A stretch of 38,406 nucleotides of DNA from Candidatus Zhuqueibacterota bacterium (GTDB taxonomy: Bacteria; Zhuqueibacterota; Zhuqueibacteria; Residuimicrobiales; Krinioviventaceae), in NCBI GenBank assembly GCA_016934825.1, contig JAFGSB010000101.1, positions 1 to 38,406 of the forward strand, written 5' to 3'. A program made the position numbers and the translations under genes. Below the pieces are notes generated by a model. That model worked only from the letters and a program-made list of their open reading frames with translations, did no database searches and was not told where the DNA came from. Shown here in pieces: positions 24,916 through 36,711 of the stretch (positions are counted from its first letter, which is position 1; the number at the start of each line of letters is the position of its first letter).

Positions 24916-25154
24916 AGTTTTTTCCTGATGTTTTTAACCTGATTAAAATATGGTGTATATTATTGTTAATGATTTTTTTGCTATAATAAAAGCGTTTTTT
25001 AATATAATTTTCCGTTGCCAAATTTTTTCATTTTATCCCGGTAAACCGAATAAAAAAGTTGTTAAAAACTGTTTGTATTGTTAAAATTTCCTGTTATATT
25101 TTATTATTATAAAAACCCTAATTGTATCTGAAACTCAACGGCAGGAGTCCAGGG

Positions 25155-25808
25155 GTGAAAGTTGTTAAAGGTCAAAATTACGGCGTGGTGACCGGGGATA
25201 TTGTCAATTCTTCAAAACTGCCCGTGAAGGAAAGGAAAAGGCTGTTTGACGAAATGCGCTCCGGTTCTGCGGAAATGCGGCAGTTTTTCGGCGAGCGCAT
25301 CCCCATGGATGTTGATATCTTTCGGGGCGACAGCTGGCAATTCGTAGTGACCCGGCCCGCCGACGCGCTGCGGGCGGGACTGCTGTACCGCGCCTATATC
25401 AAAGCGCACATGCTTCCTGCCAAACTGGACTCGCGCCTGGTAATCGCCATTGGAGGCATCGATTTTATCGCCGACCGGGTCTCCGAAAGCGACGGCGAGG
25501 TCTTTCGGCTGTCCGGCAAAACCCTGGAAACCCTGGACGATTCCGTGTGCATGAGGCTGGTCGCGCCGCACCTGCGCAACGCCGATGAACTGGACGCTAT
25601 CGTACAGCTTTTAGATGTTATCGCCCGGCGATGGACGCCCAAACAGGCGTTAGCCGTGTCCGGCGCACTGCGGGGGTGGAAACAGGAAAAAATATTATCG
25701 CTCTGGCAAAAGAATATTGCACAACCAACAGTTGTAAAACATCTGAATGCCGCGGAATGGCAAAGTGTCGGCAGGGCGATTGCTGTATATGAAAAGCTGT
25801 TGAATTAG
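25155..25808 (+). CDS. SatD-like protein
   Basis: 217 aa from GTG 25155, with AGGAG (25144-25148) six bases upstream; the frame is open to a TTG at 25122 that has no such signal. The opening QNYGVVTGDIVNSSKLP is the hallmark of SatD-like proteins, which carry the same V-x-G-D-I-x-S start. The middle (DIFRGDSWQFVVTRPADALRAGLLYRA, RLVIAIGG) resembles a nucleotidyl-cyclase-like or related alpha/beta core, and the C terminus (WTPKQALAVSGALRGWKQEKILSLW then PTVVKHLNAAEW) looks like a helix-turn-helix. The biochemical role is unknown. A DUF3307 membrane protein follows on the same strand; the pair often occurs together. Confidence 0.7.
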   Translation: MKVVKGQNYGVVTGDIVNSSKLPVKERKRLFDEMRSGSAEMRQFFGERIPMDVDIFRGDSWQFVVTRPADALRAGLLYRAYIKAHMLPAKLDSRLVIAIGGIDFIADRVSESDGEVFRLSGKTLETLDDSVCMRLVAPHLRNADELDAIVQLLDVIARRWTPKQALAVSGALRGWKQEKILSLWQKNIAQPTVVKHLNAAEWQSVGRAIAVYEKLLN

Positions 25809-25840: not shown

Positions 25841-26090
25841 ATTATAAGTAAATATGTTTATAATTTCTAAATATAAGTTTATTTGCTTATATTTGTTTGA
25901 TATAGCCTTAAAGGGCTATATTTTAATATTATAGCTTTTAAAAGCTATAAAAAAAAATAACTTAAAAAGGTTGTAAATGGTCAATACAACCCCAAAAGGT
26001 TGTGTTTGTTTAAAACAATCATTTAAGGTTGTCATTAAATTAAACAGGTTCATTTGCCTGTAATTGCAATACAGGTTTTTAGCCTGTTTT
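25841..26090 (+). repeat. Array of nine short hairpins with ~29-nt period
   Basis: Nine successive stem-loops fill the 347-bp gap between the SatD-like and DUF3307 genes. Stem arms: ATTATAA/TTATAAT (25841-25864); AAATATAAG/CTTATATTT (25869-25894); ATATAGCC/GGCTATAT (25900-25921); a perfect 22-bp palindrome centred on TTTTAAAA (25929-25950); AACTT/AGGTT with one wobble pair (25959-25972); ACAACC/GGTTGT (25986-26003); ACAATC/GGTTGT with one wobble pair (26015-26032); ACAGG/CCTGT (26044-26061); ACAGG/CCTGT followed by T5 (26071-26091). 5' arms recur every 29 nt (twice 27). Stem sequences change along the array in blocks of two or three, while both arms change together. Loops are 6-10 nt and rich in A/T. 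Confidence 0.8.
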
Positions 26091-26155: not shown

Positions 26156-26911
26156 ATGATCGGGCAATCGGCAGAGGTGTTGATCGCGTTGTTCGCCGCG
26201 CATTTACTGGGCGATTTTGTAATGCAAACCACCAAAGACGTGGAGAACAAACACAAAATGTGGGTACTGGTACGGCATACCGGGCTGGTCGCGGCGGCAA
26301 GCTGGGCGCTGTGCGGGTTATGGAGCATCTGGTTCATTCCCGCGGCCGTATTTATTGCGCATTTGATCATCGACTTTGTCAAGTCGCGGTTGGTGAAGGA
26401 CGGTTTGTACACATTCATCATCGACCAGCTTGTGCATTTTTTGTCGCTGGTCCTGGTTGCGCGGCTTGTGGCGGTTCTGTATTTACCGGCGCCGGGTTTC
26501 TGGGTAATTTTTTTCGGGCCGGGATTTTTAAAGTTTTTGGTCGTTCTATCCGGTTTGATTATGGCCACTCGTGTGGGTGGTTTCCTGATCGGTTATATGC
26601 TCAACCCTATGGAGAAGGAATTAGCGGAAGCCGCGCAAAAGCAGACGGAACCGGCCATTTTCAAGGGGCTGACCAACGGCGCGCTGTTCATCGGCCAGCT
26701 TGAACGGGCGCTGATCCTGATTTTCTTTCTGGCGGGCGAGTCCGGCGGCATCGGCTTTCTCATCGCCGCCAAATCCATTTTCCGTTACGGCGAGGTGAAG
26801 AACCGCACCGACAAAATGACCGCCGAGTATATTATCATCGGGACGCTGATGAGCTTCGGTTTCGGCATACTGGTGGCCATTGTGACCAGGATGGTCCTGG
26901 GGACGATTTGA
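26156..26911 (+). CDS. DUF3307 family membrane protein
   Basis: 251 aa; ATG with GGAG seven bases upstream. The N-terminal half is a DUF3307 domain with the typical start: LIALFAAHLLGDFVMQTTKDVENKH, then LWSIWFIPAAVFIAHLIIDFVKSRLVKDGLYTFIIDQLVHFLSLVLVARL. The His/Asp pairs (AAHLLGDF, AHLIIDF, IDQLVH) sit inside helices and may bind a metal, an inference from spacing. About seven hydrophobic segments run to the C terminus. Function is unknown. It follows the SatD-like gene, and relatives of the two are found side by side in other bacteria, so they may act in one membrane-stress or regulatory unit. The hairpin array lies directly before it and could limit read-through. Confidence 0.85.
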   Translation: MIGQSAEVLIALFAAHLLGDFVMQTTKDVENKHKMWVLVRHTGLVAAASWALCGLWSIWFIPAAVFIAHLIIDFVKSRLVKDGLYTFIIDQLVHFLSLVLVARLVAVLYLPAPGFWVIFFGPGFLKFLVVLSGLIMATRVGGFLIGYMLNPMEKELAEAAQKQTEPAIFKGLTNGALFIGQLERALILIFFLAGESGGIGFLIAAKSIFRYGEVKNRTDKMTAEYIIIGTLMSFGFGILVAIVTRMVLGTI

Positions 26912-36192: not shown

Positions 36193-36440
36193 ATTATTCG
36201 TACTAATTATTTTCACATACACTATTAAAGTTGATACGCAGCGGGCGGTCAATAAATTAAACCGCCGATGAACGCCGATAAACGCAGATAAAAATATATC
36301 AAGGATTGGGGCTATAAAGGTAGTTTTTTTTCCCTTAAATCAATTACTGCTTTCCGCAAAGATCTGCAGCCAGTGCGACGGGGAAGTTTTGCTTTTGGAG
36401 AGTTTTTGCTTTTTTTTCGGCGAGGCAGGAAAACCGGTAC
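36193..36440. repeat. ~247-bp direct repeat, left copy
   Basis: Collinear with 38161-38406 over its length, with an offset of 1966-1968 bp. Identical blocks include GATACGCAGCGGGCGGTC then AATAAA, and the final 67 bases (36374-36440 equal 38340-38406). An ACGC-rich segment (36256-36290) lies inside. The two copies flank the DUF6602-like gene; the right copy runs off the window edge. Confidence 0.8.
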
Positions 36441-36465
36441 AGCTAGTGGTTTTGCAGGGTGGTTT

Positions 36466-36503
36466 ATCTGCTTCTCATCCCGCAGACGGGATGAGAAGCA
36501 GAT
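36466..36503. repeat. Perfect 17-bp inverted repeat with 4-nt loop
   Basis: ATCTGCTTCTCATCCCG (36466-36482), loop CAGA, then CGGGATGAGAAGCAGAT (36487-36503). It has no T run. The related site in R copy 1 has the same loop but several mismatches, so this copy is the better preserved one. Confidence 0.85.
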
Positions 36504-36653
36504 TACACAACAGCCTGGCTGGGTCAAGTTGGTAGTTCATATGATGAAGGCAACCCCAAAATTGGCTTTTTCCCTTGCTTGCGCCCCAAGTGTAACTTGG
36601 GTCGCAGGGAAATCCGATCCTGGATTGGGAAGGCAGCGCTAGCTTAATAATTG

Positions 36654-36711
36654 CAGGACAGGATGTCCTGTTTTATTTTCCACCCTGGAAAGGATTTTCA
36701 GGGCGAGCTGG
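36654..36711. repeat. CAGGACAGGATGTCCTG dispersed repeat, copy 3
   Basis: CAGGACAGGATGTCCTG at 36654-36670, then TTTTATTTTCCACCC and CAGGGCGAGC. Similar layout to the copy at 34896. Confidence 0.7.

Follow-up and report, generated by a model that had tools for sequence, protein, structure and literature searches.

What purpose is served by the run of nine small palindromes that fills the space between the gene for a SatD-like protein and the following DUF3307 gene in the window, i.e., the whole analysed stretch of 38,406 nucleotides? An earlier, sequence-only reading had offered hairpins of a transcript, a protein-binding array, or palindrome amplification. Comparison with related loci makes it most likely, and in our view highly so, that the array represents nine palindromic DNA operators of the adjacently encoded SatD and not an RNA element. 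The gap between the satD stop codon (25808) and the DUF3307 start (26156) holds nine 18-bp dyads at 25844–26087, which are given below together with the flanking genes (half-sites of both arms in the sense of the 5′ arm).

25155–25808, + strand: satD, encoding a class III nucleotide-cyclase-like N-terminal domain and a C-terminal helix-turn-helix (HTH)
25716–25745, + strand: codons of the HTH recognition helix, IAQPTVVKHL, residues 199–208 counted from 25122, placed by the structure model and the correlations
25844–25861, no strand: candidate operator unit 1, ATAAG / ATAAA
25873–25890, no strand: candidate operator unit 2, ATAAG / ATAAG
25902–25919, no strand: candidate operator unit 3, ATAGC / ATAGC, equal to the half-site predicted for its own SatD
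25931–25948, no strand: candidate operator unit 4, ATAGC / ATAGC, equal to the prediction and of highest symmetry (11 of 12 pairs)
25957–25974, no strand: candidate operator unit 5, ATAAC / ACAAC, with the type switching within the unit
25986–26003, no strand: candidate operator unit 6, ACAAC / ACAAC
26015–26032, no strand: candidate operator unit 7, ACAAT / ACAAC
26044–26061, no strand: candidate operator unit 8, ACAGG / ACAGG
26071–26087, no strand: candidate operator unit 9, ACAGG / ACAGG, with the centre shorter by one base, then TTTT
26156–26911, + strand: DUF3307 gene, the presumed target of the array (PF11750, E 3.4e-16)

Units were phased on a 5′ arm A[CT]A[AG][GC], followed by 8 nt (7 in the last unit) and a complementary 3′ arm, and are joined by 11-nt linkers, with successive starts 29, 29, 29, 26, 29, 29, 29, and 27 nt apart. 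Nine hairpins on a 29-nt period had been described from the sequence, and both the number and the period stand, but the off-spacings are 26 and 27 instead of twice 27, and one unit spans about 2.8 helical turns, not about three. The earlier remarks that neighbouring units share a stem in blocks, that both arms switch together, and that T5 follows the last unit are correct; the hairpins with GGTTGT on the 5′ side do pair, but they arise when the same alternating half-sites are read in the other register, across the linker. Between 25825 and 26091 there are 10 non-overlapping perfect stems of at least 5 bp (mean 5.0, maximum 9 in 500 dinucleotide shuffles) and 7 of at least 6 bp (mean 2.2, maximum 6 in as many shuffles), and the short-range folding energy is −64.3 kcal/mol versus −25.1 ± 4.9 kcal/mol in shuffles (z −8.1). 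Self-identity of the array has a sharp maximum of 0.53 (z 7.3) at lag 29, and one dyad centre follows another at 14.5-nt intervals, a regularity unequalled in 200 shuffles; the periodic pairing is therefore unmatched by randomized sequence, which was one of the checks proposed for it.

In a 1.1-Mb sample of its own genome, the array ranks first by hairpin number and second by hairpin score, and neither a hairpin-chain detector nor a period-plus-dyad detector found another palindromic 29-bp array, so that the genome search suggested for further arrays of 27–29 nt returned the focal one alone. Samples of four other genomes scanned with both detectors commonly contain hairpin-rich regions (most of all G001, a sister species of the same genus), none of them with the focal period and regularity. 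Across 60 related genomes, a two-unit pattern occurs at the focal locus, which is its only site in its own genome, in one other satD-DUF3307 gap, and at one site beside an unrelated gene. The latter (L228, G035:C50:87866–87912), the sole match away from a recognised satD, adjoins a gene that by reading of its translation encodes a putative molybdenum hydroxylase. A DNA search with the array sequence gave elsewhere just short weak matches. Dispersed palindromes of the REP/BIME type were rejected as copies are not scattered. A CRISPR array, with which the locus has a palindromic repeat unit of about 29 nt in common, was rejected as well, in agreement with the sequence-only reading: there are no unique spacers but 11-nt linkers, and the units differ in the dyad itself.

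Several other repeats were observed in passing. GC-rich intergenic palindromes whose loops are short and whose stems vary, with cores such as GGACATGTTGTCC and CCCTGGGGATGCTCCCCAGGG, lie at 36414–36691 of the window, and runs with the same cores are found in the sister genome (L051 16100–17000, L060 8821, L062 16651, L063 18801, and L064 7111); they have no fixed period, are much denser in the sister species, and are apparently a separate phenomenon. Palindromes around GTGTCCGG-TTTAA-CCGGACAC are repeated in intergenic DNA of the own genome (L043 2339 and 2490, L036 2367, and L047 3715), where also five AT-rich hairpins with unrelated stems stand about 42–46 nt apart (L040 2799–2997). An 18-nt stretch like 25950–25967 of the window lies about 25–60 nt from the ends of contigs C29, C61, C66, C90, C128, and C130 of G000, which gives the impression that assembly had stopped at a repeated element.

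The open frame of satD begins at 25122, and translation more likely starts from a GTG at 25155, preceded by GGAG. By itself, the protein has no Pfam match, and it is 25–53% identical to homologues (53% with L147) that score against the SatD family PF16264 with 37.8 (L219), 26.4 (L217), and 20.4 bits (both L147 and L163) at a cut-off of 29 bits, which L219 alone of these exceeds. The gene directly upstream of DUF3307 encodes SatD at most DUF3307 loci examined, and the window protein has this gene neighbour as well. SatD ends in an HTH: the AlphaFold2 model of the window protein (pLDDT 94.6) has a helix at 201–210, and the Chitinophaga SatD has weak matches to HTH domains, sigma-70 region 4 among them, all below cut-offs. 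The N-terminal fold resembles that of the class III cyclase Ma1120 (PDB 4wp9, Foldseek E 7e-5, TM normalised by target 0.60), with a profile match to the class III cyclase PDB 4wp8 (HMM E 0.001). D26 and D70 are invariant across the SatD alignment and stand where metal ligands would be expected in the class III cyclase fold. Unlike in class III nucleotide cyclases, this domain is directly followed by an HTH in SatD, and it is a likely sensor of a nucleotide or another ligand. The family takes its name from satD of the Streptococcus mutans sat operon, and satD of S. pyogenes is reported to be an essential accessory gene (PMC11323703); the open literature searched contains no mention of SatD as a DNA-binding regulator or of a SatD operator.

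Relatives of DUF3307 were fetched from GTDB genomes, the loci lying mostly on contigs of metagenome-assembled genomes (MAGs), and a detector free of sequence anchors was run on them to find two similar dyads spaced by 28 or 29 bp. Such dyads, with the geometry of the focal ones, are present at 42 of the 76 satD-DUF3307 loci, from many phyla, either upstream of satD, in the satD-DUF3307 gap, or in both places, and gaps that looked ordinary at first sight proved to hold dyads of the same layout. The same detector found 0 arrays downstream of DUF3307, 0 within satD, and 0–1 in shuffles (mean 0.03), and 0–2 loci for each of the other spacings between 19 and 59, except for 58, twice 29, with 12 loci. 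Among 49 unit spacings across loci, 39 equal 29 bp and 6 equal 28 bp. In Chitinophaga cymbidii, five units precede satD at −148, −119, −90, −61, and −32; as start codons at the compared loci were set by the longest frame, distances from starts are in part approximate. The orthologous gaps, where the sequence-only reading had advised to look, thus hold periodic dyads, the opposite of the outcome that it took as speaking against itself, and a repeated dyad site is kept near the putative regulator or its presumed target, as expected of operators. Two observations count against operators of SatD: the strict detector sees no array at about half of the satD loci, many of them from Rhodobacterales with other helices, and in some genomes the array lies solely downstream of satD.

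The sister species G001 separates the two genes. Its DUF3307 locus has neither satD nor the two-unit pattern, and we rejected the idea that this genome is devoid of SatD, since a divergent copy is located elsewhere (L243), away from DUF3307 and with its own four-unit array of exactly 29 bp. This array (L243 2146–2250) lies 3′ of satD and upstream of a gene for a small lipoprotein-like protein, and consists of TCAAC twice followed by TCAAT twice, just one of these two blocks fitting the helix of its own SatD at base 5. As the array accompanies satD away from DUF3307, it goes with satD.

Mutual information with the half-site bases was ranked over all columns of the SatD alignment without residue grouping, and the top column was P202 for base 2 (z 12.5), T203 for base 4 (z 9.7), and K206 for base 5 (z 8.2). 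At 39 loci labelled with their majority half-site, glutamine at residue 202 goes with C2 (27/27) and any other residue with T2 (12/12), while serine or threonine at 203 agrees with G4 and lysine, arginine, or asparagine at 206 with C5 at 38 of the 39 loci each, and arginine at 201 with G1 at all 39; these tables describe a rule and are not blind tests, because groupings such as that of asparagine with lysine and arginine were chosen after the data had been seen. Because shuffle tests of the correlations leave relatedness in, sister pairs were counted as well: where sisters differ in the residue, the base differs too in 20 of 21 contrasts over five tests, a summary and not a probability, because some pairs recur between tests (they are independent within one test). 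Further loci of the same phylum were not used for setting the rule. One of them, L238, has a helix SQPTIHQAL (P, T, Q), a residue-base combination absent from the training set that fits ATAGG, and ATAGG is present four times; L239 with ACAAC and L244 with ATAAC in three of four half-sites also fit. The rule cannot be extended unchanged to distant SatDs, because six later loci (L243, L246, L247, L249, L251, and L252) obey it at just part of the bases and carry T as base 1, which in L243, L246, and L251 stands in place of G despite an arginine at that helix position. Common amino acid-base contacts are those of lysine or arginine with G, serine or threonine with G, and aspartate with C (PMC8222616), and the pairings deduced for SatD fit these preferences. 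Site bases co-vary with recognition-helix residues, as those of operators would, and since they do so, SatD is very probably a transcription regulator that binds the array, in line with the protein-binding array that had been among the earlier proposals.

A structured RNA, in which serial hairpins in the satD-DUF3307 transcript would act as an attenuator, processing, or stability element, appears unlikely on the same data, although the array folds at low energy (z −7.9 and −8.1 in two calculations), a terminator scan gives matches at units 3 and 9 on the + strand, and the non-Watson-Crick cells of the focal array (arms and pair 6) comprise eight G.T and no A.C. The latter counts leave a small probability of some RNA role in the focal array, but are not independent, as the units are related by duplication. 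RNA stems would tolerate G.U and not A.C, yet in 123 units of other loci, chosen regardless of wobble, G.T and A.C are about equally frequent both in the arms (7 versus 5) and at pair 6 (27 versus 24), and the symmetry is therefore that of DNA half-sites and not of RNA stems. Moreover, the variable bases track the DNA-reading helix residues of SatD, and no Rfam family scores at gathering level, the best match below threshold being on the minus strand and to a eukaryotic miRNA family (25.1 bits, threshold 47.3). The comparison thus lends no support to an RNA structure under selection, one of the options of the sequence-only reading.

With P202, T203, and K206, the window SatD has ATAGC as its predicted half-site, which is exactly that of units 3 and 4 and also that of L163 from the Phycisphaerae with the helix ISQPTANKAL. 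Only these two units and, in part, half of unit 5 match, which counts against SatD operators and would suit an array that belongs to another regulator merely linked to satD. We give that possibility the slimmest chance of all, as the top correlated residues in the whole of SatD are neighbouring positions of the recognition helix and the G001 array stays with satD away from DUF3307. The remaining focal units are symmetric or nearly so and carry half-sites of other SatDs: ATAAG (Bacteroidota), ACAAC, and ACAGG (Desulfobacterales). Such a mosaic is unusual, as the mean half-site difference is 1.6 in the focal array and at most 0.83 in every other labelled array.

Within the focal array, this difference averages 0.33 for the two arms of one unit, 0.88 for neighbouring units, and about 2 for more distant ones. 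That adjacent units are most alike is what local duplication would produce, and hairpin-rich intergenic DNA is frequent in the sister genome, but a functionless array grown by neutral palindrome or tandem amplification (template switching, slippage) is very improbable given the identical geometry found beside satD across many phyla, the co-variation of half-site bases with SatD, and the other tandem candidates in the sampled genome, which are without a periodic dyad pattern. The amplification proposed earlier may hence explain how the array grew, but not its purpose.

For SatD operators, the mosaic suggests that older operator types may have been retained in the array. The window protein's two closest relatives in the SatD tree, which form a group with it (support 95/85), have two of the focal types: L147 has ACAGG, and L162 has ACAAC, a manual assignment based on one dyad. 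Adjacent types in the block order differ by one or two bases. Tentatively, the array could be a layered record of a changing SatD specificity, with ACAGG and ACAAC blocks from earlier SatD versions at the DUF3307 end, followed by ATAAC and the present ATAGC, and with the ATAAG units coming last on the satD side, although we regard this order of events as rather doubtful. Alternatively, the window SatD might recognise half-sites broadly, or the MAG might lack a paralogue; a SatD paralogue as the source was set aside as a profile search of the own genome found no second copy, and since the MAG is 95% complete, one could be missing.

If SatD binds the array as we propose, one dimer would occupy each dyad with one recognition helix per half-site, and neighbouring dimers at the fixed 29-bp pitch might touch or cooperate. 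With a pitch of 2.8 turns, successive dimers would therefore not lie on one face of the DNA. Occupancy, set by whatever the cyclase-like domain may sense, would control the DUF3307 gene, which starts 69 bp beyond the array, and at other loci also satD itself. Operators of IclR (PMC8222616) and MerR (PMC5045206) regulators are likewise palindromic, with residues correlating with site bases by mutual information, and LacI-family regulons have been compared in a similar spirit (PMC4052901). IclR sites are often tandem as well, but are 18–22 nt apart from centre to centre, about two helical turns (PMC8222616), versus 29 bp and 2.8 turns here, where there are also up to nine units and several specificities within one array.

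SatD and DUF3307 are widespread and without an assigned function in the open literature searched. SatD would gain a likely function as a DNA-binding regulator with a cyclase-like sensor, and the result also yields predicted SatD sites in dozens of genomes, a likely target gene, and a residue-base rule open to testing by point mutation. With the mosaic array, the joint change of specificity in a regulator and its operators could be studied on a natural example.
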